DNA from: Gammaproteobacteria bacterium
GTDB taxonomy: Bacteria; Pseudomonadota; Gammaproteobacteria; Steroidobacterales; Foliamicaceae
Direction of reading: 5' to 3'
NCBI GenBank assembly: GCA_009838035.1
Contig: VXSK01000020.1
Coordinates: 64,875 to 128,874 of the forward strand
DNA length: 64,000 nucleotides
The notes under the pieces are model-generated. The model made no database searches, was not told the DNA's origin, and saw only the letters and a program-made list of their open reading frames with translations. The position numbers and the translations under genes were made by a program. Shown here piece by piece: positions 36,671 through 61,140 of the stretch. Every line of letters starts with the position of its first letter. The stretch's first letter is position 1.

Positions 36671-36733
36671 AACCTCGCTGCTGATTCAGAAAAGCGGATC
36701 ATACGAGACGCGGCCGCAACTCCGCTAACCCTC

Positions 36734-36841
36734 GGTTCCTCTTGCACACCGGTTCCGGGAACCGCCAGCGAGCACATCCCTGTGGGCTCGGCGTCGGCAT
36801 CCTGCCTCCGACGTTCCCGGAACCGGTGTGCAAGAGGAACC
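36734..36841 (-). repeat. Variable-arm hairpin element 1
   Basis: Perfect 29-bp inverted-repeat arms at 36734-36762 and 36813-36841 enclose a 50-base core. Read on the minus strand, the core contains two small hairpins, GGCA-GGA-TGCC and CACA-GGGA-TGTG. The core matches elements at 36865, 38237, 48893 and 61034, but the arms are unique. The GGA-bearing strand is the sense strand of the GMC gene, whose start lies 64 bases downstream. Confidence 0.9.
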
Positions 36842-36864
36842 TTTAGCAGGCGGCGCCGGCTAAA

Positions 36865-36964
36865 GCCCTTCGTTCGTCCCCCTCCTCGTAGGAGCGTTGG
36901 AGCAGGACAGCGAGAATCGAGCCAGGGATGGCGTCTCCAACGAGGAGGGGGACGAACGAAGGGC
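36865..36964 (+). repeat. Variable-arm hairpin element 2
   Basis: Perfect 24-bp arms at 36865-36888 and 36941-36964 enclose a 52-base core with the hairpin GCCA-GGGA-TGGC at 36921-36932 and a degenerate first hairpin around GCAGGACAGC. The left arm is pyrimidine-rich. The core is nearly identical to element 3 at 38237. It ends 44 bases before the permease start and is in the sense orientation for that gene. Confidence 0.9.
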
Positions 36965-37008
36965 GAGGAAGCACGCGAACGAAGGACTAATGGTCTATTC
37001 TTTGCAGA

Positions 37009-38217
37009 ATGTTCTTTCTTGACGTGCTGAGGCAGGCGCTGGAATCGATCGGCGCCAACCTGTTTCGCGCCCTGCTGACGATGCTGGGCATGATCATCGG
37101 CGTCGCGGCGGTGGTGACCATGGTTTCGCTGGGTACCGGCGCGCAGCGTGCGGTGGAGGAACAGATGGAGGCGCTGGGGGCCGACATCCTGGCGGTCACC
37201 AATTCCCAGCGGCGGTTCTGGGGCGTGTCGCTGGAGAACAGCAGTCTGGGCGTGGACGACGCCTCGGCGCTGCGAAGGGACGCGCGCCATCTTGAGCGAG
37301 TGGTGCCCAGGATCACTCAGCGCCTGCAGTTCGAGTTCGGCAACAGCAACACCCGCGTTGAGCTGATCGGATCCACCACCGAGTATCCCGAGCTGCACCG
37401 CTACGAAATTGCCGCCGGGAGGATGTTCGTTCCGCAGGAAGAGGAGGCGCGCCTGCGCGTGGCGGTGCTCGGAAGCGAGGTTCCCGGGAAGCTGGAAACC
37501 ACGGCGAGCGCGCTGCTGGGGCAGAGCGTGCTGTTGGGCGGGGTTCCGTTCACTGTGATCGGCGTCCTGGAGGAAACCGGCTCGGTCGGCATGCAGAATC
37601 CCAATGACGATGTGCTTGTGCCGCTGTCCACGGCGCAGTACCGGGTAACCGGCAGTGACCGGCTCGAAAGCATGGACGTGCAGATCCGCTCCGGCTCGGC
37701 AGTGGAGCAGGCGCTGGTGGACGTGGAGCGCATTCTGCGCCGCGAGCACCGGATCCGCCCTGGCGAGGACAACGATTTCGGGATCCTGGACCGCAAGCAG
37801 TTTCTGGAGGTTCGCGAGGAAACCACCCGTATCTTCGCCCTGCTGCTTCCGGCAATCGCGGGGGTCAGCCTGGTGGTGGGCGGAATCGGCATCATGAACA
37901 TCATGCTCGTGACGGTGGCAGAACGCACCCGCGAAATCGGCGTGCGCCGGGCGATAGGCGCGACCCGCGGCGCGATCATGTCGCAGATCCTGGTCGAATC
38001 CTCGCTGCTGTGCCTGCTCGGCGGCTTGCTGGGCGTGGCCGCCGGCTGGGGAGCCTCGAAACTGCTGGCGGAGTTCTTCAACTGGCAGACCGTGGTGGCG
38101 GCGGAATCGATCGGGGTCGGACTGGGCTGCAGCCTGCTGATCGGCATCGTCTTCGGCCTGTGGCCCGCCCGCCGCGCCTCAACGCTGGACCCCATCGAAG
38201 CCCTGCGCCACGAATAA
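37009..38217 (+). CDS. MacB-type ABC transporter permease, orphan
   Basis: The product has 402 residues. It has the MacB layout: one N-terminal helix (about 20-40, LLTMLGMIIGVAAVVTM), a large periplasmic domain (about 50-270) and three C-terminal helices of the FtsX fold with the signature REIGVRRAIGATR. Usually this subunit is encoded with an ATPase and a membrane-fusion protein; neither is present on either side here. It is flanked instead by two hairpin elements with almost the same core (36865 and 38237). It would work with an ATPase encoded elsewhere. Substrates of this family range from peptides to macrolides and lipoproteins. Confidence 0.92.
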   Translation: MFFLDVLRQALESIGANLFRALLTMLGMIIGVAAVVTMVSLGTGAQRAVEEQMEALGADILAVTNSQRRFWGVSLENSSLGVDDASALRRDARHLERVVPRITQRLQFEFGNSNTRVELIGSTTEYPELHRYEIAAGRMFVPQEEEARLRVAVLGSEVPGKLETTASALLGQSVLLGGVPFTVIGVLEETGSVGMQNPNDDVLVPLSTAQYRVTGSDRLESMDVQIRSGSAVEQALVDVERILRREHRIRPGEDNDFGILDRKQFLEVREETTRIFALLLPAIAGVSLVVGGIGIMNIMLVTVAERTREIGVRRAIGATRGAIMSQILVESSLLCLLGGLLGVAAGWGASKLLAEFFNWQTVVAAESIGVGLGCSLLIGIVFGLWPARRASTLDPIEALRHE

Positions 38218-38236
38218 TCGGACAGCCGCTGCGGAA

Positions 38237-38334
38237 GCCTTTTTCCTGCCCGTCCCGTCAGGGAGCGTTGGAGCAGGGACAGCGAGAATCGAGCCAGGAT
38301 GGCGTCTCCCGGACGGGACGGGCAGGAAAAAGGC
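38237..38334 (+). repeat. Variable-arm hairpin element 3
   Basis: Perfect 23-bp arms at 38237-38259 and 38312-38334 enclose a 52-base core almost identical to that of element 2, with the hairpin GCCA-GGA-TGGC at 38293-38303. The arms share no sequence with those of the other elements. It starts 19 bases after the permease stop, in sense orientation to it, and lies before the end of the convergent MFS gene, so it may also act as a terminator. Confidence 0.9.
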
Positions 38335-38378
38335 GAGGGCCGCACGAACGTAACTTGACTCGCCCTTTGCGGGCCTCG

Positions 38379-39599
38379 TCAGGACGCGCCGGCAACCTCT
38401 GGATTGGGGATTCGCGGCATCCAGAGCAGGGTGGCCAGTCCCAGCACCGCCGCCACCCCGCCCCAGTACACGGTGGCCGTGGTCAAACCGATCGACTGGG
38501 CCCAACCTCCGAGCGCCGCGCTGCCCAGCGCCACGCCGCCGAAAGCAACGACGCTCCACAAGCTCATGACGCGCCCCCGGTATTTTTCCTCGACCACCGC
38601 CTGGGTGAGCGTTTGCGATCCCACGCCGCAAATGGTCAGGGCGCATCCGAAGAACGGCAGTTGCAGCATGGCGAGCCAGAAATTGCCGGTAAAGCCGAAG
38701 GCAACGATCAGCAGGCCGGCCAGCGCCACGCAAATGGCGGCCGATGTGCGAAGCTGCTTCAGGTCCTTGTTCCGGGCCACCCAGAAGCCACCCGCTACCG
38801 CCCCCACGCCGAAAGAGGAAATCAGCAGTGACATTCCGTCGCTGCCCCGTTGAAAGACTTCGTCGGCGTACGGCGCCATGAGCTCGAACAGCGCCCGTCC
38901 GAAGGTGGCGCCAATCAACACGAGAACAAGGTAGTAGCGGATTGCGGGATGGCGCAGGGTGTAACTGACGCCGTCGCGCAGCAGGCGGGCCAGTCCGATC
39001 TGCCGTTCCAGTTCGCGCGCCACCGGCTGCAGCTTCAGGTCCCAGAGCACCCATGCCATGCCGAGAAAGGTGGCGGTGCTGATCGCGAACGCCGGCGCCA
39101 GACCGAAAAACTTGATGATGTAGCCGCCGAGCACCGGGCCGATGACGCGCGCGACGTTGAAACTCACCGCGCCCAGTCCCACGGCGCTGGCGAGTTGCAT
39201 GGACGGCACCAGGTTGGCCATCAGGGCTAGGCGCATGGGCGTATAGCCGCCGCTGAACACGCCGAAGGACAGCGCGAGCAGGAACAGCGCGGCCGGCGTC
39301 ATGAGGCCGAGGGCCGACAGGGCGAACAGGCCGGCAGTGACGCCGATGTTGAGCACGTTGAAGGTCTGCGCCGCCCTGCGCCGGTCCCAGCGGTCGGCGT
39401 ATGCGCCGAATACCGGTCCCAGCACGGCCACCGGGAAATACGCCGCAAACGCCACCGCCGCGACGAAAAACTCCGACTCGGTCAGCTGCCAGGCCTGCCA
39501 TCCCAGCGACAGCCGCAGGATCCACAGGCCATGCGTGGTGATGGTGCTGCCGATCAGGAAACGGCGATAGGCGGGCGTTGATAATGCGGAGCTGGACAT
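38379..39599 (-). CDS. MFS transporter (EntS/DHA3-like)
   Basis: The product has 406 residues with about 12 hydrophobic helices. The loop motif GAYADRWDRRRAAQ between helices 2 and 3 is the MFS signature, and the overall pattern is like the DHA3/EntS group of proton-driven exporters. I take the start at 39599 (MSSSALSTPAYRRFLIG), since the open frame upstream is not membrane-like and reads into the divergent metF region. Substrate unknown. It is divergent from metF with 128 bases between. Confidence 0.9.
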   Translation of the reverse strand: MSSSALSTPAYRRFLIGSTITTHGLWILRLSLGWQAWQLTESEFFVAAVAFAAYFPVAVLGPVFGAYADRWDRRRAAQTFNVLNIGVTAGLFALSALGLMTPAALFLLALSFGVFSGGYTPMRLALMANLVPSMQLASAVGLGAVSFNVARVIGPVLGGYIIKFFGLAPAFAISTATFLGMAWVLWDLKLQPVARELERQIGLARLLRDGVSYTLRHPAIRYYLVLVLIGATFGRALFELMAPYADEVFQRGSDGMSLLISSFGVGAVAGGFWVARNKDLKQLRTSAAICVALAGLLIVAFGFTGNFWLAMLQLPFFGCALTICGVGSQTLTQAVVEEKYRGRVMSLWSVVAFGGVALGSAALGGWAQSIGLTTATVYWGGVAAVLGLATLLWMPRIPNPEVAGAS

Positions 39600-39727
39600 G
39601 CCGGGGGGCCGATTACCTGGCGGAGTTCGCGGCGTGAAGTGGGCCGCGATGGATAGCCGCCGGGCCAAATGGGCGAGCGAGTGAGTATGATGCGCGCAGC
39701 GTGAATTGTCCACGCCGAACCAAGCCC

Positions 39728-40594
39728 ATGAGCCCACCCGCCAAAATTTCGCTGGAGTTCTTTCCGCCACGCACGGACGAACTGACCGCAATGCTGGAAG
39801 CCTCGCTGAAGCGCCTGTTGCCGTACGGTCCGCTGTACTGCACGGTTTCCTATGGCGCGGGCGGTTCGACGCGGGCAGGTACGGCGCGCTGGGTGCGGCG
39901 GATCCGCCAGGACTTCGGCATCGATTGCGCACCCCATCTAACCCACGTCTCGCACACCCGCGACGAGGTGCGGGAGATCGTGCGGGGCTACGTCGCGCAG
40001 GGCGTGCGGAGGATGATCGCGTTGCGCGGAGACATCCCTGCGGACGGTATTCCGGACGAAGTGCGCAAACGTGGCTATTCCTCGACGGTGGAGTTGATCG
40101 CCGACCTGAGGGCCGAGGGGATTAACGAGGTCATGGTAGGCACGCACCCAGAGCACGGCGGTGGCGACAGCGCCAGTTTGCGCCGGCACCTGGAGTTCGT
40201 GAAGCAGAAGCTCGACGCCGGCGCCACGCTGGCCATCACCCAGTTCTTCCTCGATAACCACAGGTACTATCGGCTGCGCGATGTTTTCGCGGGAGCGGGC
40301 ATGGAGCACCTGCTGGCGCCCGGCATCATGCCCCTGCATAACTACAGGCAAGTGTTTTCGTTTGCCGGCAAGACCCACGTGGAGGTTCCGGCCGCGCTGC
40401 GCGAGCGTTTTCAACAGGCCGGGGAGGATCCCGACGCGGTCAGGCAAATCGCCGAGGGTTTCTCGCTGGACCAGGTTCGGGACCTTGCGGAGAATGGCGT
40501 GGAGCGTTTTCACATCTACACGATGAATCGGGCGCCGTTGACCGCGGCCATCTGCGAGGCGCTGGGATCGAGCGCCCCGGGTCCGCAGTCGTGA
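39728..40594 (+). CDS. metF: 5,10-methylenetetrahydrofolate reductase
   Basis: The product has 288 residues. The enzyme reduces methylene-THF to methyl-THF with FAD, supplying methyl groups to MetH. Family signatures are LEFFPPR at the start, [15 protein letters not shown] and [13 protein letters not shown] prefer the ATG at 39728; a GTG at 39701 is possible. The stop overlaps the metH start by four bases (GTGA), so the enzyme and its user are translationally coupled. No SAM or SAH riboswitch was recognised upstream. Confidence 0.96.
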
Positions 40595-43500
40595 ACAGTC
40601 CGTCGGCCCGGGCCGAGGCCCTGGGCGAACTGATCCGCACCCGAATCGTTTTCATCGACGGTGCGATGGGCACGCTTGCCCAGACCCTGGATCTTTCTGA
40701 GGAGCAATACCGGGGTCGGGAGTTTGCCGACTGGCCCCAGGTGCTGAAGGGCAACCACGACCTGCTGTGCCTGACCCAGCCGCATTTCGTGCGTGAGATC
40801 CACGACTCTTATCTCGAGGCCGGGGCCGACATCCTGACCACCAACAGCTTTACCGCCAATGCGCCATCGCAGGCGGACTACGGCCTTGAGGACCGGGTAG
40901 CCGACATCAACCGCGCATCGGCGAAGATCGCCCGCGAGGCCGCGGACGCGGCCCAGCAGCGCGACGGGCGGCCCTATTTCGTGGCCGGCAGCCTGGGGCC
41001 CACCAACCGGACCGCATCGCTGTCGCCGCGCGTGGAGGACCCCGGCTACCGGGCCACCGATTTCGACCAGCTCGCGGCCACCTATGAGATCGCCACCCGG
41101 GCGCTGATGGAAGGCGGCGCCGACCTGCTGCTGATCGAGACCATTTTCGATACCCTCAACGCCAAGGCGGCGTTGTACGCTATCGCGCGCGCCGGCGACA
41201 GTCTGGGGCGCACCTTGCCCGTAATCGTTTCCGGCACGATTACCGACGCTTCGGGCCGGACGCTGTCGGGCCAGACCGTGGAAGCCTTCTACAACTCCAT
41301 CCGGCATGCGCCCATGACCGCCATCGGCCTGAACTGCTCGCTGGGCGCGACCGAGCTGCATCCGCACATGCGCGAACTGTCGCGGGTCGCCGAATTGCCC
41401 GTGAGCGTCCACCCCAACGCCGGTTTGCCCAACGAACTGGGCGAATACACCGAGTCGCCGGAGGAGATGGCGGCCACGCTGGAAGCGATGGCGAGGGAGG
41501 GGCTGCTGAATCTGGCCGGCGGCTGCTGCGGCACGACGCCGGAGCACATCCGGGCGATGCGCGAGGCGCTGGCCGGTATCGGCCCGCGCACCCCGCCCGC
41601 GCCGCCGCCGATCACCAGGCTGGCCGGGCTGCAGCCGCTGAACATCGACGACAGCACCGGCTTCGTTCACGTGGGGGAGCGCACCAACGTTACCGGTTCG
41701 GCGATCTTCCGGCGGCTCATCGAGGCGGACGACTACTCCGCCGCGGTGGAGGTGGCGCGCCAGCAGGTCGAGGCCGGCGCCAACCTGCTGGACGTGAACA
41801 TGGACGAAGGGCTGCTCGATTCCGAGGCCGCGATGCGCCGCTACGTCAACCTGCTGGCTGCCGAGCCCGACATCTCGCGGGCGCCCGTCATGATCGACTC
41901 GTCGCGTTTCGAGGTGCTGGTTGCCGGCCTGAAATGCCTGCAGGGCAAGGGCGTGGCCAATTCCATCAGTCTCAAGAACGGCGAGGAGGAATTCCTTGAG
42001 CAGGCGCGCGAGATCCGGCGCCTGGGCGCGGCCGTGATCGTCATGGCTTTCGACGAGCAGGGCCAGGCCGAGAGCGTCGATGAGCGGGTCGCGATCGCCG
42101 AGCGCAGTTTCCGGCTGCTCGTGGAAGAGGCTGGTTTTCCGCCGGAAGACATCATCTTCGACCTGAACATTTTCGCCGTCGCCACGGGTATCGAGGAGCA
42201 CGACGACTACGGCCGCGCTTTCATCGAGGCCACCGGCCGGGTGCGCGAGCGGCTGCCCGGCGTGCATGCCAGCGGCGGGGTCAGCAACCTGTCGTTCTCG
42301 TTCCGCGGCAACAATGCGGTGCGCGAGGCGATGCACTCGGTGTTCCTGTATCACGCCATCGCCGGGGGCATGGACTTCGGGATCGTCAACGCCGGCCAGC
42401 TGGGCGTGTACGAGGACATCCCCAAGCGGCTGCGCGACACGGTGGAGGACGTGATCCTCAATCGCAACCCGGGCGCGGGCGAGCGGCTGCTGCAACTGGC
42501 GCAGGAATACCAGGGGCGGGGAGCGCGGCAGGACCGCGACGAACAGGAGTGGCGCGCTCTGCCGCTGGCGGAGCGATTGAGCCATGCGCTGGTGCACGGG
42601 CTGGACGCCCACGTGGTGGAGGACACCGAGGCCGCCCGGCAGGGCAGCGAACGGGCGCTGGACGTGATCGAGGGCCCGCTGATGGACGGCATGAACATCG
42701 TGGGCGACCTGTTCGCCACCGGCAGGATGTTCCTGCCGCAGGTGGTCAAGTCGGCCCGGGTCATGAAGAAGGCCGTGGCCCATCTCATCCCCTTTATCGA
42801 ACAGGAGGGCAGCGGCGTGTCCAGCCGCGGGCGCCTGGTGGTCGCGACGGTCAAGGGCGACGTGCACGACATCGGGAAGAACATCGTGGGCGTGGTGCTG
42901 CAGTGCAACGGCTATGAGGTCATCGACCTCGGCGTAATGACGCCCTGCGAGGAGATCCTGGACACCGCCGTCAGGGAAAAGGCCGACTACGTCGGTCTGT
43001 CCGGCCTGATCACGCCTTCGCTCAACGAGATGGTGCACGTGGCCGGCGAGATGCAGCGTCGCGGCATGGACCTGCCGTTATTGATCGGCGGCGCCACCAC
43101 CTCGCCGCGGCATACGGCGCTGAAGATCGATCCGGCCTACGAGGGCGGCGTGGTGTATGTGAAGGACGCGTCCCGGGCGGTGGGGGTGCTGAGTGAACTG
43201 AGCGGCGCCGGGCGCGACGCGTACCTGCGCGGCGTCGCCCGCGACCTGAAACGCCGCCGGGAGCAGCCGGCCGGCAAGCGCCGGCGCGAGGACCTGCTCA
43301 GCCTTGAGGAGACGCGGGGCAATCGGCTCGAGATCGACTGGGGCGCGGAACCTCCGGTCGAGCCCGCGCGCACCGGCGTTGTCGAACCGCAGTCGCCGAC
43401 GCTGGAGGACCTATACGGCTACATCGACTGGCAGCCCTATTTCGCAGCCTGGGAGATGCACGGGAAATTCCCCCAGCTTCTGGATGATCCGAAGAAGGGC

Positions 43501-44280
43501 AAGGCCGCGAGCGAACTCTGGGACGACCTGCACCGCTCGCTGATCGAACCCATCAGGGCCGGGGAGATCGAATTCCCGTCGGCGGGCGTTGCCGGAATTT
43601 TCCCGGCCGCTTCCCACGGAGACGACATCGTGTTGTTCGAGGACGAATCACGGGCAACGGAACTGGGGCGCATTCACGGCCTGCGCGAGCAGCGGCGAAT
43701 GCCGCCGGGCAGGGCCAATACCGCGCTGGCCGACTTCGTCGCCCCGCCCACTGCGGGCGGCGACTGGGTCGGGATGTTCGCGGTCACCGCCGGGGGCAAT
43801 CTGGACGAGACCATAGCGAAGCTGGCCCGCGGCAGGGATGTGGCCGACGACTACGGCGCCATCCAGCTCAAGGCGCTGGCCGACCGGGCAGCCGAAGCGT
43901 TCGCGGAGTATCTGCACGAGAAGGTGCGCAGGGAGTTGTGGGGATACGCGAGCGACGAGTCGTTCAGCAACGAGGACCTGATTGCCGAACGCTACCGGGG
44001 CATTCGTCCCGCGCCGGGTTACCCGGGTTGTCCGGACCACAGCGAGAAGGAACTGATCTGGCGCCTGCTGGACGTCGAGCGGCGCATCGGCGCGCGCCTG
44101 ACCGAGTCGTACGCGATGTGGCCGGCCGCCACGGTGTCGGGCTACTACTTCGCCCATCCCCGGTCCCGCTACCCGAATATCGGACTGATCGGAGACGATC
44201 AGCTCGCCGACTACGCCCGGCGGAAGAAGATCACGCTTGACGAAGCGCGCCTCTGGCTGGCGCCCAATCTCGCCGACTAA
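40591..44280 (+). CDS. metH: Cobalamin-dependent methionine synthase
   Basis: The product has 1229 residues, full length. Modules in order: homocysteine-binding with zinc ligands (NCS and GGCCG) at about 1-330, pterin-binding ([11 protein letters not shown]) at about 355-620, cobalamin cap and Rossmann domains with the cobalt-ligand motif DVHDIG (His759), and the SAM-activation domain (about 930-1229, [15 protein letters not shown]). The enzyme transfers the methyl group from methyl-THF to homocysteine through B12. Start is GTG at 40591. Having all modules on one chain, it needs no separate activation protein except a reductase. The stop overlaps the end of prmC on the other strand by four bases. 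Confidence 0.98.
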
Positions 44281-45119
44281 ATCCGGGCTGAGGTTACGCG
44301 CTCATGGCCCGCCAGGTCGCGATGCGTGACCGGCGGTCCAAGTCCGGCGTGGCGCATCAGTGAGCGGACCGGCGCGCCCTGGTCCGCGCCGTGCTCAACC
44401 ACCAGCATTCCTCCGCGGTTGAGGTGCGGCGGCGCGCCGGAAATGACCAGGCGCAGTTCCCGCAGGCCGTCCGGACCGCCATCCAGCGCCGCACGCGGTT
44501 CAAAGCACAGCGGCGGGTCGCCGCACAGGGCCGACTCCACGTACGGCGGATTGCAGGCGATGGCGTCGAAGCGCCGGCCCTCCAGCGGACCGTACCACGG
44601 GCCCTGAACGAAGCGCACCCGGCCCGGCGCCAGCCCGGCGGCGTTACGCTGCGCGACGGCAAGCGCAAGGCGGGAACTGTCGGTGGCGACGAATTGCGAT
44701 TCAGGCAGGGTCCGGGCCAGTACGACAGCAACCGCGCCGCACCCCGTCCCCAGTTCCAGTATTCGTGGAATCCCGTCGGCCGAACTGACCCCGTCGCGGA
44801 TGACGTCCACCAGCAACTCGGTCTCCGGCCGAGGCACCAGCACGTCGCGGCTGATCTCGAATTCCAGCGAATAAAACTCCCGGCGACCGATGATCTGCGC
44901 CAAGGGCCTTCCGGCGCCGCGTTCGGCCAGCAGTGCTTCGAATTGCTGCACGGCCCCGCTTTGCGACTCTTCCGCCGTGCGCGCGTAAAGCGCGGTGCGG
45001 TCCACGCCCAGCGCATGCGCCAGCAGCAACTCGCAATCCAGCCGCGCACTGTCGCTGACGCTCTTAAGCCGCCTTGTCCCCTCCCTCAACAGGGAACCCA
45101 GACTTCGCACCGCCGCCAT
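44277..45119 (-). CDS. prmC: Release-factor glutamine methyltransferase
   Basis: The product has 280 residues. PrmC (HemK) methylates the glutamine of the GGQ motif in release factors. The N-terminal helical domain (about 1-90) is followed by the SAM-binding motif [13 protein letters not shown] and the active-site motif NPPY. In many gammaproteobacteria prmC follows prfA; here prfA is 9 kb away at 54424 and prmC sits tail-to-tail with metH. It is divergent from the cystathionine enzyme gene at 45212. Confidence 0.96.
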
Positions 45120-45211
45120 CGCCCTATTGTCCCCGACCTGTTGCCGTGACGCGTCACGAGTATTGTGTTCTCGGCGCTTCCCGCCATAATGCGCCTTCAG
45201 GATTCAGCACC

Positions 45212-46366: not shown

Positions 46367-46372
46367 ACCCCG

Positions 46373-48808: not shown

Positions 48809-48892
48809 GGTTGTCCCCTATTCAAGTGCAAGAGAATTCCGCCTCCCCAAGCGGATCGAAGTCGAGTATATACGCCAGCCTCAATCCGGGGG

Positions 48893-49012
48893 AATCGCCG
48901 CGAGCGCAAACCACCTTTCCCAGGACACGCCTACAAGCACATCCCTGTGGGCTCGGTGTCGGCATCCTGCCTCCAACGTTCCTGGGAAAGGTGGTTTGCG
49001 CTCGCGGCGATT
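48893..49012 (-). repeat. Variable-arm hairpin element 4
   Basis: Perfect 33-bp arms at 48893-48925 and 48980-49012, the longest of the set, enclose a 54-base core. On the minus strand the core has hairpins GGCA-GGA-TGCC (48961-48971) and CACA-GGGA-TGTG (48938-48949). The core matches element 1 closely and the arms do not. It begins five bases after the stop of the serine-hydrolase fusion gene and lies before the receptor gene, both on the minus strand, so it is sense to both. Confidence 0.9.
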
Positions 49013-49016
49013 TGCG

Positions 49017-51206: not shown

Positions 51207-51250
51207 GGCGCGAATCATACCGGCGCGCGTTTGCGCCGCCTTCGCTTCGT

Positions 51251-52642: not shown

Positions 52643-52750
52643 CGAATCCTCAGGTGGCGCCCTCGCTGGCGAAAACGCGAATCATACGCCCCACTCGCGG
52701 GTGCGTTATCGTTACGCACTTCTGTCTGAACATGCTTGGGAGAGAGTTCC

Positions 52751-53641
52751 ATGAATCGGAGGGAATTGCTGCGGGGTGCGGCCGTGATGGGTATCGGGGT
52801 GGGCGCGCCTCGAATGTTGGCGGCGGAAGCGGCGGCGGCCGCCACTGCCGAAACACTGACGCTGCCCGGCGATCCGGAAGGCCAATGCCGTGCGATGGTC
52901 CGCGCCTACGGAAACGAAGGCGGCGATCCCTGCGTCTTCAAGACCCGCGGCAAGGTCTTTGCCGTTCAGGAAGACGCGGTCACGCCCATGTACGGGTTCC
53001 TGGGCAGCGAAACCGGCTGGTGGAAGCAGGTGGAGGAACACGTGTGGGTACGCTATCCGTCCACGGTTTCGTTCTTCACCGATCTCGAGACCGGCGAGTT
53101 CATCGACCAGTACACCAGCCCCTTCAACGGCGCCACGGTCACGCTGCCGGCCAGCTTCATACGGCACAAGGAAGGGCAGTACTACACGCCGATGGGCGTG
53201 TGGTTCGGCAGCATGAAGCGGGTATTTCCCGACCATTACGCCGAGAAGCCGCTGCACCTGGACTGGACCGATGACAACGGCGTCCTGCGCCTGCAGGAAG
53301 GCTCGCGTTTTCCTCCCATCCTCCCCCAGCCGTCGCTGGAATACGCTTCCCTTTTCGCCGCGACGCATGAAGTCCTGGGCGAGGAACCGCGCCAGCCGAC
53401 CGCCGCCGCCGGAGGCTGGAACATTTTTTCCGCTACCCGCCGGCCGTACAACGAAATGGGCATCCTGCCCGGCCACGTGATCTGGCATTTCGACGCGGTC
53501 AAGGTGCCGTCCTTCGAGGACCTGGACGCCGGCTATCTCGAGCGTGCCCGGGCCCTGTCGCCGGTATTCGAGCAATCGCCCGAGCACGACGACGGCCCGT
53601 CGTTCTTCGAACGCATCATCGAGATGCGCGGTTTCGGCTGA
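52751..53641 (+). CDS. DUF1838 protein (paralogue 5)
   Basis: The product has 296 residues. A twin-arginine signal (NRRELLRGAAVMGIGVG) starts at ATG 52751, preceded by GGGAGAG. The family motif FTDLETGEFIDQYTSPFNG is at about 112-130. The C-terminal half is less like the other paralogues (no PWM.MG motif). It is followed after 36 bases by an Asp/Glu-racemase-like gene, probably cotranscribed. Confidence 0.9.
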   Translation: MNRRELLRGAAVMGIGVGAPRMLAAEAAAAATAETLTLPGDPEGQCRAMVRAYGNEGGDPCVFKTRGKVFAVQEDAVTPMYGFLGSETGWWKQVEEHVWVRYPSTVSFFTDLETGEFIDQYTSPFNGATVTLPASFIRHKEGQYYTPMGVWFGSMKRVFPDHYAEKPLHLDWTDDNGVLRLQEGSRFPPILPQPSLEYASLFAATHEVLGEEPRQPTAAAGGWNIFSATRRPYNEMGILPGHVIWHFDAVKVPSFEDLDAGYLERARALSPVFEQSPEHDDGPSFFERIIEMRGFG

Positions 53642-53677
53642 GCGTGCGTGGCGGGTGATTCGTTGGAGGAATAAACG

Positions 53678-54421
53678 ATGACCGATGCTTTGGGATGGCG
53701 AAGAAAGTTCGGGGTGCTGGGGCCTTCGACCAACACGGTCGTGCAACCGGATTTCGACGACCTGCGTCCGCCGGGCGTGACCAATCACTACTCGCGGATC
53801 ATCATTCAGGACGCCAATGCAATATCGGACGAGACCTTCATGGCCGGCACCATCGAGATTTCCGAGAATACGGCGGCAGCCGTTCGCGGCGTGCTGACCT
53901 GCAAGCCGGACTACCTGGTCATGGGGATGTCGGCGGTGACGTTTTACGGCGGCGTGAAGGGCGGCACCGAATGGAAGAGGAGGATCGAGGAGATCGCGGA
54001 ACTGAAGCTGTCCGTCGGTTCCGAGGCCGTGGCCGACGCGCTCGACGCCTACGGCTCGCGCAACGTCGCGTTCATGTCGCCCTATTACCCGGTGGCCAAC
54101 CGCGAGGTCAGCCGATACCTGTCGGACCGCGGATTCAACGTCGTGCGCGACTCCTGCCTGCGCTGCCCCTCATGGACCGCCATCGCGGAAGTACCTGAAT
54201 CGCGGGTGGCCAGCGTATTCCGGGAACTCGACGGCGACGATGTGGACGCGCTGGTGCAGGTGGGCACCAACCTCTCGGCGATCCGGCTGGCGGCGGGCGC
54301 GGAGCGGTTGCTCGGCAAGCCCGTGATCGCCATCAACACCGCCACCTATTGGCATGCGCTGAGAGCCAACGGCATCCAGGACAAGGTCATGGGATTCGGC
54401 CGCCTGCTGGAGGAGTTCTAG
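53678..54421 (+). CDS. Asp/Glu racemase / maleate isomerase-like protein without catalytic cysteines
   Basis: The product has 247 residues. The fold and length match the maleate isomerase / arylmalonate decarboxylase branch, with FGVLGPSTNTVVQPDF at the start. The two cysteine positions of the family read VMGMSAV (M84) and VGTNLS (G196). The family uses one or both cysteines for catalysis, so this protein has another mechanism or no activity. Other cysteines (near residues 75, 155 and 158) are not at these positions. GGAGGAA precedes the ATG. It sits with a DUF1838 gene. Confidence 0.88.
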   Translation: MTDALGWRRKFGVLGPSTNTVVQPDFDDLRPPGVTNHYSRIIIQDANAISDETFMAGTIEISENTAAAVRGVLTCKPDYLVMGMSAVTFYGGVKGGTEWKRRIEEIAELKLSVGSEAVADALDAYGSRNVAFMSPYYPVANREVSRYLSDRGFNVVRDSCLRCPSWTAIAEVPESRVASVFRELDGDDVDALVQVGTNLSAIRLAAGAERLLGKPVIAINTATYWHALRANGIQDKVMGFGRLLEEF

Positions 54422-54423
54422 CC

Positions 54424-55509
54424 TTATCCGGGATCCAGGGTGGCGAGCTGTTCGGCCTCCATGTGCTGGCGTAGCGGCTCGATGATCCCGTCGAGGTCGC
54501 CTTCCATGATCTGCGGCAGCTTGTAGAGACTCAGGTTGATGCGGTGGTCGGTGACCCGGCCCTGCGGGAAGTTGTACGTGCGGATGCGCTCGGAGCGGTC
54601 GCCGCTGCCGACCTGAGAGCGCCGTTCCTCGGCGCGCTCGTGCTCGAGGCGGCTCTGCTCGGCGTCCAGCAGCCGGGCGCGCAGCAGCGACAGCGCCCGG
54701 GCGCGATTCTTGTGCTGCGAGCGCTCGTCCTGACATTCGACGACGATTCCAGTGGGCAGGTGGGTGAGTCGGACCGCGGAGTCGGTCTTGTTCACGTGCT
54801 GGCCGCCGGCGCCCGAAGCGCGATAGGTATCGACCCTCAGGTCGCCGGGATCGATCTCGATTTCTCCCGTTTCCTCGGCTTCCGGGAGCACCGCCACGGT
54901 GCAGGCCGAGGTGTGAATCCGCCCCTGCGACTCCGTTTCCGGCACCCGCTGCACGCGATGGGCGCCGGACTCGAACCGCAGGTAGGAAAAGACCCGCTTG
55001 CCGGCCAGCCGGCAGACGATTTCCTTGTAGCCGCCGTGTTCGCCCTCGCTCATCTGAATGATCTCCTGCGCCCAGCCGCGCCCCTCCGCATAGCGCGCGT
55101 ACATGCGGAACAGGTCGCCGGCGAAAATCGCCGCTTCGTCGCCGCCGGTGCCGGCGCGGATCTCCAGGTAAACGTCGCGGGCGTCGCGCGGGTCGGGCTT
55201 GAGCAGGAAACGGCGCAACCGGACTTCCAGGGCCGCCTGTTCGCGCCGCGCCTCCTCGGCCTCTTCCCGCGCCAGCTCGCGCAGTTCCTCGTCGTCGCCG
55301 CCGAGCATTTCCTCCGCCGAAGCCTCCGTTTCCAGCGCCCGCTCCAGCCGGTCCAGCAGACTGGCCAGGGGCTGCAGACGCGAGTGCTCGCGGCCGGCAT
55401 CGCGCCGGCGCACCGGATCCGAAAGCACTTCCGGATCCGCCAGCGACGCCTCAAGTTGTTCAAAACGGGACTTGAGGCCGCGGAGTTTTTCCAGCAGGGC
55501 GGGGTTCAT
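54424..55509 (-). CDS. prfA: Peptide chain release factor 1
   Basis: The product has 361 residues. RF1 reads UAG and UAA and releases the peptide. The GGQ motif is at 235-237 ([10 protein letters not shown]), and the codon-recognition motif PxT reads PET at 190-192 in [17 protein letters not shown], which marks RF1 rather than RF2. hemA, its usual upstream neighbour in gammaproteobacteria, is missing; a divergent TPR lipoprotein gene lies there instead. Confidence 0.98.
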
Positions 55510-55570
55510 GGTCGTTTCCGCGTGGGGTCTGTTGACCGGCGGTGCCTGGCACTGAGGCTATTATCGCAGT

Positions 55571-57226
55571 GTGGATCTTCGTCCCAGCACCAGGTTGGCC
55601 GCCGTCTTTTTCGCAGGGTGCTCCCTCGCGGCTTGCGCAAGCACGCAGATGAGTCTGGCCGAGGCCGGCTGGCCGGCGTTTCCGGGTCATGAAGCCCGTG
55701 CCCTGCTGGCCGAGGCGCAGCGCGTGCCGGACGGTGCGGCGGCAGCTCTGAAGGCCCGGGAGGCGGCGGAGTTCGCGTTCCGGCGCGATCTCTATGCCGT
55801 TGCCCTGGAAGCGGCGACCTTGTGGCATGCGAGCGAAACAGGCGACCCGGAAGTCCTGGCGCTGCTGGCAGCCCTGAACGCGGCTGCCGGCGACATGCAG
55901 GCGGCGTACGAAGCGGCTCGCGAGGGTCTTTCCGCGGACGCGGATGACGGACGCTTTCTCGCATTGCTCGAGGAGCGGCTGAACGGAATCAATTCGGACG
56001 CGCTTACCACCACGGACCTGGAGCCGCTGACCAGCCGGCTCGCCGCCGAGCATCCCGATCTGCCGCAAGTGCTCAATCTCGGTGCGCGTGTGGCGCTTGC
56101 CGCCGAGCAACATTCGCAGGCCTCCCGGTTGGCGGAAGACCTGTTGCAGCTTGATCCCGGGCGCGACGATGCGCATGCGCTCGCGGCCACCGCGCTGTTG
56201 CGCGCCGGCGACCCGGATGCCGCCCTCGCCCGGTTGACCGAGCAATTGGCTATTCGCGACAGCCTGGTGCTGGAGCAGAACTACGTGGCCTTGCTGCTGG
56301 CGGCGGAACAACCGCGCGAGGCCTTCGGCCGCCTTCGAAATCTTCGCGCCACGCACCCGCGCTCTCCGGATCTGGCGCTGCAGGAGGCCGGGCTGCTGCG
56401 GATGCTCGACGCCGATAATTACGCCGAGCCGATATACCTCGAGCTTTTTTCGCGCGGCTACCGGCCCGATTTCTGCCGCTTGGCCCTGGGGCAGATCGCC
56501 GCCCGGCGCGAGGATTGGCTGGAATCGATCGAGTGGCTCGCCGGGATCGAAACGGACCGGCTGGCGCCCGCGGCCGCGAGTGTGCTGGTCGGGGCTTTCG
56601 TCGCGCGGGATGAAATCGACGAGGCGCTGGCGACCCTTCTGGACCATGTCGGGCGCTATCCCCAGCACGCCTTCGAGAGCCTGCCGCTGTTCGCTTTCGT
56701 GATGCGGGCCGCCGATCGCGATGGTCAGGCGCTGGCGGCGTACGAGGAAGCTCTTCGCTACCGGCCGCAAAGCCGTGCATTGAGGATGCAGCGAGCCCAC
56801 CTGCTGCTGGATCTCAAGAAACACCGCAGGGCGATTCGGGAGATGGAAGGCTTGCTGGCCGAGCACCCGCGTGACTCGGAAGTGCTCAATGCCCTGGGAT
56901 ACACGCTGGCGGATCGGGGCATACGACTTGAGGAAGCCCATGGTCATATCAGCCTGGCGCTGGAGCTCGACCCGGGCTCGCCCGCGATCGTGGACAGCAT
57001 GGGCTGGGTGCTCTACCGCCTGGGCCGGAAGGAGGAGGCCGTGCCGCTGCTGGAGCAGGCGCTTGAGGGCCTTCCGAATCCCGAAGTCGCCGCGCACCTG
57101 TGCGAGGTCCTGTACGAACTGGGACAGACGGAACGGGCCGACGAACTGCTGAGCGATTCGCTGGTGCAGTACGAGGACGAGGACACGACGCTCCTGGAGG
57201 CCGTTCGGGACAGGTATTCGCGATGA
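55571..57226 (+). CDS. TPR-repeat lipoprotein
   Basis: The product has 551 residues. It starts with GTG at 55571; a lipobox (SLAAC) follows, then repeated helical pairs of TPR type. The last repeats are clearest (VLNALGYTLADRG; DSMGWVLYRLGRKEEAVPLL). The stop overlaps the lolB start by four bases, so it may work with outer-membrane lipoprotein sorting. TPR proteins next to lolB are seen in other proteobacteria. No enzyme domain is visible. Confidence 0.9.
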   Translation: MDLRPSTRLAAVFFAGCSLAACASTQMSLAEAGWPAFPGHEARALLAEAQRVPDGAAAALKAREAAEFAFRRDLYAVALEAATLWHASETGDPEVLALLAALNAAAGDMQAAYEAAREGLSADADDGRFLALLEERLNGINSDALTTTDLEPLTSRLAAEHPDLPQVLNLGARVALAAEQHSQASRLAEDLLQLDPGRDDAHALAATALLRAGDPDAALARLTEQLAIRDSLVLEQNYVALLLAAEQPREAFGRLRNLRATHPRSPDLALQEAGLLRMLDADNYAEPIYLELFSRGYRPDFCRLALGQIAARREDWLESIEWLAGIETDRLAPAAASVLVGAFVARDEIDEALATLLDHVGRYPQHAFESLPLFAFVMRAADRDGQALAAYEEALRYRPQSRALRMQRAHLLLDLKKHRRAIREMEGLLAEHPRDSEVLNALGYTLADRGIRLEEAHGHISLALELDPGSPAIVDSMGWVLYRLGRKEEAVPLLEQALEGLPNPEVAAHLCEVLYELGQTERADELLSDSLVQYEDEDTTLLEAVRDRYSR

Positions 57227-57822
57227 GGCAAAAGGCGGCGTTTACCGGATTCCTGCTTGCGGTCGCATGGCTGCTGGCGGGCTGCACGGCGACAGGCAAT
57301 CGCGTCCCCGCCGTCCTGGACGCCGCCGCGCTTGCGGAACTTGAATCCTGGGAGCTGCGCGGACGTGTGGCGCTGAACCGGGAGGGCCGGGGGGCGCAGG
57401 CCAATGTCCTGTGGCGCCAGGAAGGACCTCTTGCGCGGCTGGAATTGAGCGGCCCCTGGGGCGTGGGCGCCGAGCGCGTGCGGATCGAGGGCGGCGACGT
57501 CAACCTGTTCAGCGAGGGCGACTGGGTTTCGATGTGTGCACCCGGCATGCAGATCGAGGAGTTGGAAATGCTGTGCGACAGTGCGCCGCTGAAAAGCCTT
57601 CCCTACTGGTTGCGCGGATTGCCGGATCCCGGTTCCCCGTTCACCGAATACAGTTCCGGCCAGGGCGCGGCGCGGGAATTCCGCCAGGACGGCTGGAGTA
57701 TCGAGGTGAACGCGCTGGCCCGCTCGGGCGACCTCGCCGTTCCCCGAAGGCTCAACATATCCGGACCCGGCGCTTCGATGAGGGTGGCCATCACGAACTG
57801 GGAGTTGCCGCCGGTTCGCTGA
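57223..57822 (+). CDS. lolB: Outer-membrane lipoprotein receptor LolB
   Basis: The product has 199 residues with lipobox LLAGC. LolB accepts lipoproteins from LolA and inserts them in the outer membrane. The family start ELESWELRGRVAL and the middle part LARLELSGPWGVGAERV, plus YWLRGLPDPG, fit LolB well. It is coupled to the TPR gene by an ATGA overlap. ispE, the common downstream gene, is absent; a helicase gene follows. Confidence 0.93.
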   Translation: MRQKAAFTGFLLAVAWLLAGCTATGNRVPAVLDAAALAELESWELRGRVALNREGRGAQANVLWRQEGPLARLELSGPWGVGAERVRIEGGDVNLFSEGDWVSMCAPGMQIEELEMLCDSAPLKSLPYWLRGLPDPGSPFTEYSSGQGAAREFRQDGWSIEVNALARSGDLAVPRRLNISGPGASMRVAITNWELPPVR

Positions 57823-57842
57823 GCCGGCCGGGGCGGTTGCAC

Positions 57843-59405
57843 GTGGACACTCGCGCCCCGGGCCTGGAAATCACCGACGAGTTCGCCCGCGCGCTTAAGG
57901 GCATGGAGCAGGGCGCCCGGCACCTGCTGATCACCGGCAGCGCGGGGACCGGCAAGTCCACTCTGCTGAGTTACTTCTGCCAAAGCGTAGACTGGGACCC
58001 GGTGGTCCTGGCGCCTACCGGGGTGGCGGCGCTGAACGTTGGCGGTCAGACCGTCCACCGCTTTTTCGGCTTCGGGATCGACGTGACGCCGCAAGCCATC
58101 GCCGCGCGCCGCGGCAAACCGCGCAACGCGAAACTCTACAGAAACCTGCGCACGCTGATCATCGACGAGGTATCGATGCTGCGCGCGGACCTGCTCGACT
58201 GCGTGGATCTCTTTCTCAGGCGCTACGGCCCCCGCCCGAACGCCCGTTTCGGCGGCGTCCACATGGTGTTCATCGGCGACCTCTACCAGCTTCCGCCGGT
58301 GGTTACCGGACTGGAGCACGAGGCGCTTCGCCAGGTTTACGAGTCTCCCCATTTCTTCAGCGCCCGCGCGCTCGAGGACGTGGAGCTGGAGATCATCGAA
58401 CTCACGCGCGTATTCCGCCAGCGCGATCGCGAGTTCGTGCGCTTGCTGAACCGCGTCCGCAAGAAGTCGCTGGAACACAGCGACCTGCAGCGCCTGAACC
58501 GGCGGGTGGACCCCCAATTCGATCCGCCTGACGGCGAGGGGTACATCACGCTGACCGGCACCAACCGCAAGGCCGGCCTGATCAACCGCAACCGGCTGGA
58601 CGGCCTGGTCGCGCCGGAGCATCGGTTCGATGCCGTGATCGAAGGCGCTTTCGGCCGCGAGTACTACCCCACGGAGGCGCAACTGCGCTTCAAGGCCGGC
58701 GCCCAGGTCATGCTGCTGAACAACGACGGCGCCGGACGCTGGGTCAACGGCAGCATCGGCGTGATCGAGGGCGTGAACATCGGCGGCGGCGAGGCGTATG
58801 TGCTGGTCCGCCTGGCCGATTCCGGACGGCGCGTTCGCGTCGAGCCGTACGAATGGGAGCTGATCCGCTTCGAGGCCCGGGAGGGGTCCATCGTCAGCAG
58901 CCCGGCGGGAACCTTCACCCAGTTTCCGTTCCGGCTGGCCTGGGCGGTGACCGTCCACAAGAGCCAGGGCAAGACTTTCGAACGGATGGTGATCGATCTC
59001 GACCGCGTGTTCGCCGCCGGTCAGACCTACGTTGCCCTGAGCCGCTGCACGTCCTTCGAGGGGCTGGTGCTGACCCGCCCGTTGACGGCCGGTTCCATCC
59101 GTTGCGACTGGCGCGTGCAGCGCTTCCTGACCGGCGAGCAATACAAGCGCGCGGAACGAAGCCTGTCCACGGACACCAAGCTCGAAATCATCGAGAGAGC
59201 CATCGCCGCGGCTAGCCCCCTCGACATGGAGTACCTGAAGCGCAACGACGTGCGCACGCGACGCCGTATCCGCCCGCTTGAAGTGGGCATGCGGTCTTAC
59301 TCCAACCGGGAATTCCTCGGCATGCGCGCCTGGTGCATGCTGCGCCAGGACGAGCGGACCTTCCGCGTCGACCGCATCCTCTCCCTAAGCCCTCCCGACA
59401 CCTGA
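57843..59405 (+). CDS. Pif1-like superfamily 1 DNA helicase
   Basis: The product has 520 residues from GTG 57843; TTG 57837 is an alternative. Helicase motifs in order: GSAGTGKST (Walker A, K38), APTGVAALNVGGQTVH, IIDEVSM (Walker B), GDLYQLPPV, and late motifs VHKSQGKTFERMVID and YVALSRC. This order identifies a Pif1/RecD-like 5'-3' helicase. About 80 residues follow the last motif with no known domain (rich in Arg, including RNDVRTRRRIRPL), perhaps a nucleic-acid binding tail. Its place beside lolB suggests no functional link. Confidence 0.93.
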   Translation: MDTRAPGLEITDEFARALKGMEQGARHLLITGSAGTGKSTLLSYFCQSVDWDPVVLAPTGVAALNVGGQTVHRFFGFGIDVTPQAIAARRGKPRNAKLYRNLRTLIIDEVSMLRADLLDCVDLFLRRYGPRPNARFGGVHMVFIGDLYQLPPVVTGLEHEALRQVYESPHFFSARALEDVELEIIELTRVFRQRDREFVRLLNRVRKKSLEHSDLQRLNRRVDPQFDPPDGEGYITLTGTNRKAGLINRNRLDGLVAPEHRFDAVIEGAFGREYYPTEAQLRFKAGAQVMLLNNDGAGRWVNGSIGVIEGVNIGGGEAYVLVRLADSGRRVRVEPYEWELIRFEAREGSIVSSPAGTFTQFPFRLAWAVTVHKSQGKTFERMVIDLDRVFAAGQTYVALSRCTSFEGLVLTRPLTAGSIRCDWRVQRFLTGEQYKRAERSLSTDTKLEIIERAIAAASPLDMEYLKRNDVRTRRRIRPLEVGMRSYSNREFLGMRAWCMLRQDERTFRVDRILSLSPPDT

Positions 59406-59446
59406 CGAGGTCCTATAATCGAGGGGAAAGCATGGGGGAGACGACC

Positions 59447-59833
59447 ATGAGTGACAATCCCGGCTACACGGCCGATTTCATCAAGTCCGACACGGACCAG
59501 GCCACGTTCATGAAGGATCCGGCGATGGATCATCTGATGACGGCGCTGGTGTCGGTGAGCACCGAGATCTGGGCGCAGGCCCGGCGCATGAAGATCATGG
59601 AGCGATTGCTGGAGGACCATGGGAAGGTGACGCGCGAGATGATCGAGGGTTACATGCCGAGCGCGGAGGAGGAGGCGTCCTGGCGTGCCGAGCGCGACAG
59701 TTTCATCGAGCGGACGTTCGGTTCGATCACGGTGGGGCATTCGGGCGAGGGCCAGCCGATGATGGAGTTCCGCAACCGGTCGGCCCCGGAGGGGTCGACG
59801 AATCGCGCCGGCATGGGAGGTGACCCGTCATGA
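59447..59833 (+). CDS. Small hypothetical protein coupled to a methyltransferase
   Basis: The product has 128 residues. I chose ATG 59447 because GGGGGAG precedes it by six bases. The sequence is hydrophilic and mostly helical (SVSTEIWAQARRMKIMERLLE; GYMPSAEEEASWRAERD). No signal peptide, metal motif or known family is recognised. Its stop overlaps the methyltransferase start by four bases, so the two are likely partners. A TATAAT sequence at 59414-59419 is a possible -10 box, without a good -35 box. Confidence 0.8.
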   Translation: MSDNPGYTADFIKSDTDQATFMKDPAMDHLMTALVSVSTEIWAQARRMKIMERLLEDHGKVTREMIEGYMPSAEEEASWRAERDSFIERTFGSITVGHSGEGQPMMEFRNRSAPEGSTNRAGMGGDPS

Positions 59834-61008
59834 TGAATCGACGCACGATTCTGGGCGCCCTGGCCGCGGCCTTTTCGGCAACGGCGGCCACGCGCAAGGC
59901 GCGCGCGTCCACGGCCACTCCGCCTTCACCGCCGTACGACTTCGAGCCGCGCGGCAACATCGGCAAGCTGGAGCGTCTGGCCAGTCTTGACCTGGAAAGC
60001 CGCCAGGACTTCCTGACCGGCTTCCGCGTCTGGTCGAACGGCCCTCTGGGCCGCGCCGCACAGGTTCGCGCCGAACACATCTTCAAGCAAGAGGGCATCG
60101 ATCCCACGAGCAATCTTTCGATCGAGGCGCTGCGCGAAGTACTGGAACGCGACCCGGTGATCGGCGCCAGCATGCGCTACTGGATCAGCGGCCAGGAGAT
60201 CAGCTGGAAGATCCTGCAGGAGGAGTTCCACGGCAAGGCTCACACCTATCTCGCGGAACTGGACGCGGCCGACAAGGCCGGTCCGGGCTCGGTGAAGCTG
60301 GACCCGGACCTCAAGGTTCCGGAATACGCTTCGCACGAGATCCACATCCAGCCCGGCGGCTACGTGGGCGATCCCTTTGCGGGCCACATCTATCACTACG
60401 GCACCAACCACTTCTACATGGGTCACAACGACCAGGACGAGGTGCACGCGCAACTGGCGGCGGCGGTCGAGCCGCCCGAAGACGGCCAGGTCAAGCGCAT
60501 TCTCGATCTGGCCTGCGGGCCCGGCCAGCTGACCCTGGCGCTGAAGGATCGTTTCCCGGATGCCGAGGTGTGGGGACTGGACGTTTCCGCCCCGATGGTG
60601 CGTTATGCGCACATGCGGGCGGTCGAGCTCGGCAGGGAAATGCACTTCGTGCAGGCGCTGGGCGAGAAGACCGGCTTCCCGGACGGTTTCTTCGACATTG
60701 TGGCTTCGTACATCGTCTTTCACGAGACCCCGGCGCAGATCACCAGGGACATCGTTGCCGAGGTGCGGCGCATTACGCGTCCCGGCGGCGTTTTCCAGCC
60801 GTTCGATTTTCCGAGCGACGAGCACCCGCCCACCGGTTTTAGCAAGTTCCGGCGCTGGTGGGACCATCGCTGGAACCAGGAAGTGTGGCGCAACGAATTC
60901 GCGAGCATCCATTTCCCGACCGAGATCGAGAAGGCCGGCTTTTCGGTGCGCGAAGCGAAGAAGGGCGTGCTGTTCTTCGGGCGGGTTCACGCAACGCGCA
61001 ACGCTTAG
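59830..61008 (+). CDS. SAM-dependent methyltransferase with Tat-like signal
   Basis: The product has 392 residues. A class I methyltransferase domain occupies the C-terminal half: ILDLACGPGQLTLAL (about 223-237), VWGLDVS, and FDIVASYIVFHE. The N-terminal half (about 30-215) has no family I recognise but is rich in aromatic residues (HIYHYGTNHFYMG). The N-terminus NRRTILGALAAAFSATAA looks like a twin-arginine signal. Export would be odd because SAM is cytoplasmic, so the leader may be uncleaved, or the protein may have lost SAM use. The ATG at 59833 is an equal alternative start. Confidence 0.88.
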   Translation: MMNRRTILGALAAAFSATAATRKARASTATPPSPPYDFEPRGNIGKLERLASLDLESRQDFLTGFRVWSNGPLGRAAQVRAEHIFKQEGIDPTSNLSIEALREVLERDPVIGASMRYWISGQEISWKILQEEFHGKAHTYLAELDAADKAGPGSVKLDPDLKVPEYASHEIHIQPGGYVGDPFAGHIYHYGTNHFYMGHNDQDEVHAQLAAAVEPPEDGQVKRILDLACGPGQLTLALKDRFPDAEVWGLDVSAPMVRYAHMRAVELGREMHFVQALGEKTGFPDGFFDIVASYIVFHETPAQITRDIVAEVRRITRPGGVFQPFDFPSDEHPPTGFSKFRRWWDHRWNQEVWRNEFASIHFPTEIEKAGFSVREAKKGVLFFGRVHATRNA

Positions 61009-61033
61009 CGCCTGATTTCGGGGCACTTGGTAA

Positions 61034-61140
61034 GCCATTTCTTTGCTCCCTTCTTCAGGGAGTATTGGAGCCAGGGATGGCGGAGCAAGCTACAGGGATG
61101 TATTCATGCGTCTCCCGGAAGAAGGGAGCAAAGAAATGGC
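61034..61140 (+). repeat. Variable-arm hairpin element 5
   Basis: Perfect 23-bp arms at 61034-61056 and 61118-61140 enclose a 61-base core with two clean hairpins, GCCA-GGGA-TGGC (61070-61081) and TACA-GGGA-TGTA (61091-61102). The second matches 11 of 12 positions of the published CsrA SELEX consensus RUACARGGAUGU. It lies between two plus-strand genes, in the sense orientation, ending 17 bases before the dehydrogenase start. Confidence 0.9.

Follow-up and report, generated by a model that had tools for sequence, protein, structure and literature searches.

In the usual repetitive extragenic palindromes (REPs) and in palindromes resembling miniature inverted-repeat transposable elements (MITEs), such as ERIC, RUP, NEMIS, and Correia, it is the ends of the element that are conserved. 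REPs have been defined as units of 20–40 nt with stems of 6–13 bp, which carry a GTAG/CGTC foot in more than 90% of the members of most families (PMC3733652), and they are insertion targets for some insertion sequence (IS) elements (PMC1525189). When replication switches template between inverted repeats, the described outcomes are homogenized arms and an inverted spacer (PMC8604942), and it has been argued that such switching both generates perfect RNA stems and keeps them perfect, multibase compensatory changes included (PMC8794818). Here, we describe palindromic repeats with a conserved core and variable, perfectly matched arms, found in a 64,000-nucleotide stretch (the window; positions 64,875 to 128,874 of contig VXSK01000020.1, assembly GCA_009838035.1) of a gammaproteobacterium of the Foliamicaceae. 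They are best read as a genus-restricted, non-autonomous, REP-like repeat family, the arms of which are probably kept perfect mainly by replication template switching, in preference to selection on pairing alone.

A blind inverted-repeat scan of the window (spacer of 30–140 nt) returned exactly five elements, E1–E5, and no others, and the same scan returned 0 in each of 10 order-3 Markov control windows. The five elements, coordinates, and perfect inverted arms reported in a preliminary description of the window were verified. E1 (36734–36841, minus strand) consists of perfect 29-bp arms (36734–36762 and 36813–36841) around a type-2 core (36763–36812). E2 (36865–36964, plus strand), flanked by AAA on the 5′ side and GAGGAAGCA on the 3′ side, has a type-1 core between perfect arms (36865–36889 and 36940–36964) of 25 bp, not the 24 bp first given; the arm lengths given for the other four stood. 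E3 (38237–38334, plus strand) has a type-1 core and perfect 23-bp arms (38237–38259 and 38312–38334), E4 (48893–49012, minus strand) a type-2 core and perfect 33-bp arms (48893–48925 and 48980–49012), and E5 (61034–61140, plus strand) a core of a third type and perfect 23-bp arms (61034–61056 and 61118–61140). As first noted, four of the five have GAG directly after the right arm, E3, E5, and E1 (36731–36733 in core orientation, ctc on the plus strand) among them; E4 has CCC instead. The claim that all five have one core in common was wrong, as type 1 (GGAGCGTTGGAGCAGGGACAGCGAGAATCGAGCCAGGATGGCGTCTCC) is found in E2 and E3, type 2 (CGTCGGAGGCAGGATGCCGACGCCGAGCCCACAGGGATGTGCTCG...) in E1 and E4, and the core of E5 is a related type between these two. 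The RNA folds of E1–E5 were more stable than those of shuffled sequences, with z-scores of −7 to −12, and in several copies the stem extends inward via GGAG/CTCC. Across the family, an A precedes the first G of the arm in 89% of copies and a G follows the right arm in 91%.

The extent of the family was examined with a covariance model built from type-1 copies, at a genome threshold of E ≤ 1, in the source genome (G000) and eight sampled congeners (labels such as G001), nine genomes in all. The source genome yielded 82 matches, which after removal of 15 opposite-strand duplicates and 8 partial matches left about 59 full-length places, and each of the eight congeners yielded 23–65 matches. Thus, the whole-genome search suggested earlier uncovered neither a scarcity of copies nor arms that fail to pair in relatives. 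Of 49 genomes representing other genera of the order, 48 gave no match; the 49th (G046) gave three weak ones, which were rejected as family members, being a different repeat made of GTAG-type REP dimers. In that genome, which belongs to another family and has three Y1 transposase genes, the REPs (L140, L149, L158) stand head to head around a conserved loop, CGAGAATCGAGTCCGCGAGTCTCGAG, and the inner arms of the dimers vary between copies yet pair perfectly. An exact 20-nt core sequence, sought among about 85,000 genomes, was found in four gammaproteobacterial metagenome-assembled genomes (MAGs) only, those of the congeners G001, G002, G005, and G007, whose isolate names hint at an origin in marine sponges; no copy of the type-1 core was found in viral contigs. 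Rfam gave no family match above the gathering score for the elements, only tRNA, and weak matches to microRNA families were dismissed as long-hairpin artefacts. The elements are 86–142 nt long, typically about 98–120 nt, with arms of 18–33 bp, mostly 22–33 bp, in lists composed of search matches and fetched stretches and therefore enriched in type-1 copies. Half elements, consisting of a core and right arm without a left arm, occur in tandem with a period of 68–70 nt (G000 C5:44985–45073, C28:1523–1612, and C23:30–117); MAG assemblies break at copies, so such arrays, as well as insertions, are seen incompletely.

Comparison with the congeners established that the elements are mobile. The gene order of the window is kept in all of them, with long blocks of 72–94% identity, and the flanks of filled and empty sites are 85–96% identical. 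A 280-nt segment with the divergent pair E1+E2 (36710–36989) is absent from G002, G006, and G007, where the junction reads CATACGAGAC|ATGGTCTATT, and from G001 too. The segment containing E3 (38218–38376) is replaced by 13–17 nt in G001, G002, G004, and G007; G006 has E3, in whose arms a T-A pair has become A-T by a compensated change. The E4 site is empty in G002, G004, G006, and G007, with orthologues of E4 in G001 and G005. Clean empty sites are also found at positions occupied in other species only, as at 46367–46372 of the window, between convergent genes, where G001 and G006 have a type-1 element and G005 a different, type-2-like element. The search for empty sites proposed in the preliminary description was therefore successful for E1+E2, E3, and E4, and since these sites lie in syntenic congeners, the elements have jumped into new sites. 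About 20 filled/empty comparisons define the moving unit as approximately 12 nt, the hairpin, and a further 16–18 nt. At one intergenic site (L199/L208/L211; orthologues in G001–G007), element types and orientations differ between species, which suggests an insertion hot spot or repeated replacement. Divergent element pairs about 30 nt apart are frequent, often with one type-1 and one type-2/3 copy (36734–36964 of the window; G000 C5, C23:93983–94228, C29:4808–5069, C4:51330–51581, and C2:119706–119958). The window pair E1+E2 and the C5 pair have a common spacer, and both members of a pair seem to be moved or duplicated together.

Arm sequences are carried along when an element moves. The E2 arm, GCCCTTCGTTCGTCCCCCTCCTC, is identical in several copies from other species, and for 24 of 55 sampled arms of the source genome another copy is at least 80% identical. 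The dissimilarity of the arms noted previously holds among E1–E5 themselves but not genus-wide, as four of the five window arms have relatives at other loci of the genus; the E4 arm has orthologues only. Because arms are common to unrelated loci, we conclude that each copy brings its own arms. The preliminary description had also proposed that an arriving element copies the neighboring host DNA in inverted form, so that the arms would be specific to each site. In favor of this, the outermost bases of the E4 arm, AATCGC(CG), are already present in the empty site of G007, so that part of one arm may be host-derived and have been copied into the other. Such copying is nevertheless highly improbable, as arms recur at unrelated loci and in different species, and the empty sites lack arm sequences apart from the 4–8 outermost bases at E4.

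The genomic context of the copies was determined with gene calls from a simple home-made caller. Among 121 copies, 51 (42%) lay between convergent genes, 31 were codirectional sense, 25 codirectional antisense, and 14 divergent; the 34 gene pairs of the window comprise 9 convergent, 17 codirectional, and 8 divergent pairs. Most copies are located 10–40 nt past a stop codon, with no strand preference. The convergent contexts and the proximity to stop codons would be expected of bidirectional intrinsic terminators between convergent genes, but this function is very unlikely. Neither arm is followed by a U-tract, the E1–E3 region gave no terminator-like call, the branched 50-nt loop is unlike that of a terminator, and copies, E1 and E2 included, also occur in divergent regions. 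By pattern, the family is not an intrinsic terminator.

Of the described repeats, REPs share with this family the extragenic location, high copy number, palindromic structure, frequent divergent (inverted) pairs, and use as a target of site-specific insertion, together with a partly conserved foot. However, GTAG was found in only 25 of 125 copies (20%), the feet AAAG, GAAG, and TAAG together being commoner; the elements are larger, with arms of 18–33 bp; and the structured core is conserved instead of the stem. Neither a Y1 transposase nor a REP-associated tyrosine transposase (RAYT) was detected in any of the nine genomes of the genus, while a Y1 transposase was found in 6 of 10 other genomes of the order, sister families included. 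Membership of the GTAG/CGTC REPs was rejected on the basis of foot, size, and missing Y1 transposase, and a RAYT/Y1 enzyme was likewise rejected as the mobilizer. The MITE-like palindromes ERIC, RUP, NEMIS, and Correia are similar in size, intergenic location, empty sites, and lack of an encoded enzyme. They differ in that here it is the middle that is conserved, while the two ends of a copy vary together, with no target duplication seen; as the arms differ per copy and only the feet A|GC...GC|G are conserved, a classical MITE was also rejected.

The arms change in lockstep. In a direct, alignment-free count over 140 elements, 3613 of 3637 arm pairs were Watson–Crick, with 11 G-U, 5 A-C, and 8 other pairs; the arm detector penalizes every mismatch equally and thus favors perfect arms, but not any type of mismatch. 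When 82 type-1 copies were aligned, 27 of the 29 outer-helix pairs exhibited changes on both sides with almost no G-U. Over the whole structure, 98.6% of cells were paired and 515 double-change cells were counted, compared with 114 ± 12 in shuffles, although the alignment was fitted to the structure and the counts lean towards it; sliding the partners gave a far lower signal. In the inner type-1 hairpin, by contrast, one U-G pair is invariant and G-U pairs are numerous. Pairing is thus kept very strictly, and arms are complementary in relatives as well. For instance, the E4 arms read AATCGCCGCGAGCGCAAACCACC in the window, AATCTCCGCGAGCGCAAACTGCC in G001, and AATCGCCGCGAGGCCGCACTACC in G005, each perfectly matched. 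In orthologous elements, before removal of misaligned or replaced pairs, both members had changed in 82 arm pairs and one member in 43; a single replaced element accounts for at least 13 of the 43, and misalignment or contig ends for about 10. Double changes affected 7.6% of orthologous arm pairs, core differences amounted to 5.0%, and flank divergence was about 4–12%; these orthologue counts are not phylogenetically independent. In G001, the core of E4 is inverted within orthologous but diverged arms, with the outer flanks in the same orientation as in G000 and G005.

The preliminary description had suggested that the pairing is strongly selected. The strictness with which it is kept (515 against 114 double-change cells) accords with that suggestion; the scarcity of G-U, the lockstep change at about the flank rate, and the core inversion fit homogenization at the DNA level better. 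Natural selection for pairing alone, whether of RNA or of a cruciform, working through successive compensatory mutations, would account for the very strong outer-helix covariation, and we regard it as an unlikely sole explanation. G-U, the usual intermediate, makes up only about 0.3% of arm pairs, an inversion of the core is not predicted by selection alone, and compensated double changes reach about the divergence of the flanks, which is hard to attain if each requires two independent mutations. Two such mutations should coincide far less often than single neutral changes occur, so a double-change rate close to the flank rate argues for copying of one arm onto the other. We infer that template switching is the agent of this copying, and prefer it because G-U is nearly absent, the arms change in lockstep at about the flank rate, and one core inversion has occurred. 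Elements would land in intergenic DNA, mostly just past stop codons, often between convergent genes and in either orientation, each copy arriving with its own arms and the conserved flanks of about 12 nt on the 5′ side and 16–18 nt on the 3′ side. A mutation in one arm would then be copied onto the other by polymerase template switching between the close inverted arms (quasipalindrome correction), so that the arms could drift at about the flank rate and remain perfectly complementary, and the core between them would occasionally flip. The core itself may be conserved as the recognition target of a mobilizing protein, or of a host protein such as CsrA. Quasipalindromes shaped by template switching in E. 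coli and yeast (PMC8604942, PMC7202029) are alike in arm homogenization and spacer inversion, whereas here the signature spans a whole dispersed mobile family across species.

Several points weigh against template switching in a mobile repeat. Strong selection for exact Watson–Crick pairing, in cruciform DNA or RNA, could also yield perfect arms, and the excess of G-U over A-C (11 against 5), although not significant, is in the direction that selection predicts. In-place inversion of the core was found in a single case. Some orthologous arm differences may reflect replacement by another copy of the family and not change in place. As for mobility, no target-site duplication was seen in the roughly 20 filled/empty comparisons and the junctions are imprecise, and no transposase or other enzyme responsible for mobilization was identified.

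In its fold, the core forms a pair of short hairpins that carry A(N)GGA loops and resemble the binding sites of CsrA/RsmA. The consensus for CsrA obtained by systematic evolution of ligands by exponential enrichment (SELEX) is RUACARGGAUGU, the GGA being placed in a hexaloop; an ANGGAN hexaloop is recognized by RsmE, and binding at two sites favors a spacing of more than 18 nt (PMC7652899). In the elements, the loops are AGGGAU, AUGGAU, AAGGAU, AGGAU, or AGGAC, with invariant loop bases and varying closing pairs (stems CAC/GTG, TAC/GTA, TCC/GGA, CCC/GGG, and GTC/GAC). E1 has the hairpins GGC-AGGAT-GCC and CAC-AGGGAT-GTG, and E5 has GCC-AGGGAT-GGC and TAC-AGGGAT-GTA. In the second hairpin of 41 type-2/3 cores, with loop A(N)GGA(Y), the closing pairs were CG/UA/GC and AU/CG/UA, 99.2% were paired, and no G-U was present. 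The covariation score of both core hairpins was 0.40, compared with 0.09 in shuffles. On the core strand, 119 of 125 distinct cores contained one or more strict hairpins; the corresponding number for the antisense strand was 5 of 125, and shuffles gave about 9%. About half of the distinct cores have two or more, most others have one strict hairpin and a second GGA motif, and the GGA-GGA spacing is mostly 17–23 nt. The source genome has a single csrA (E = 4.5e-24). From these motifs, binding of CsrA to the core is plausible. In several copies of various core types and species, one GGA loop is swapped for a nested palindrome, GTGAGCGCCGATG(A/C/T)CCCGGCGC... (L029 at about 1502, L112, L126, L129, L172, L213, and L216).

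The elements might accordingly be functional RNA regulators, transcribed and under selection for pairing, in which a single CsrA dimer would be bound by the pair of A(N)GGA loops, as cis-acting sites or as dispersed sponges; such a role is compatible with both mobility and template switching. It is suggested by the match of the GGA hairpins to the SELEX consensus and the ANGGAN hexaloop, by fixed loops on covarying stems, and by the strand specificity, the spacing, and the single csrA. The absence of orientation bias relative to codirectional neighbors (31 sense, 25 antisense) is unexpected for a cis-acting RNA, no Rfam match was of the CsrA-binding kind, and about half of the distinct cores have only one strict hairpin; hence we hold this role to be possible but doubtful. 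CsrB/RsmZ-type RNAs are similar at the level of motifs, in CAGGA(U/C)G, ANGGAN hexaloop hairpins, and paired sites about 17–23 nt apart, but here about 60 dispersed intergenic copies lie inside a long perfect stem, with no match in Rfam.

A multi-copy insertion interrupts type-1 cores, always at the same position, GGAGCGTTGGAG^CAGGGACAGCG. Only its two ends, TATCCATGTTGTCAAGCATGG... and ...GGCCCTATTCAAACAGACAAG, are assembled, at the ends of the G000 contigs C4, C6, C12, C13, C19, C23, and C29 (L062–L066, L077, L225, and L232) and in G007 (L219–L221). This insertion resembles an IS with the repeat as its target, comparable to those IS elements that insert into REPs. The IS110 family was rejected as its identity, as PF01548 is absent from the assembly. 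The contig ends had also suggested an autonomous version of the element with a gene in its loop, which was set aside in favor of the multi-copy insertion at a fixed core point.

Perfect covariation of a stem is usually taken to prove that an RNA is under selection; in this family, a natural example, it seems to be largely mutation-driven, a warning that covariation alone is insufficient to call functional RNAs among bacterial intergenic repeats. Its many loci come with empty sites and are dated by the divergence of their flanks, and they would allow arm conversion rates in nature to be measured. The CsrA-like conserved core also raises a directly testable regulatory hypothesis. It is conceivable, albeit speculative, that a mobile repeat spreads predicted dual-site CsrA-binding hairpins through a genus of presumed symbionts, with the long self-correcting stem as their chassis. 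If so, template switching would keep the stem perfect without selection, and new CsrA sites would be dealt to many operons and displayed there for long.

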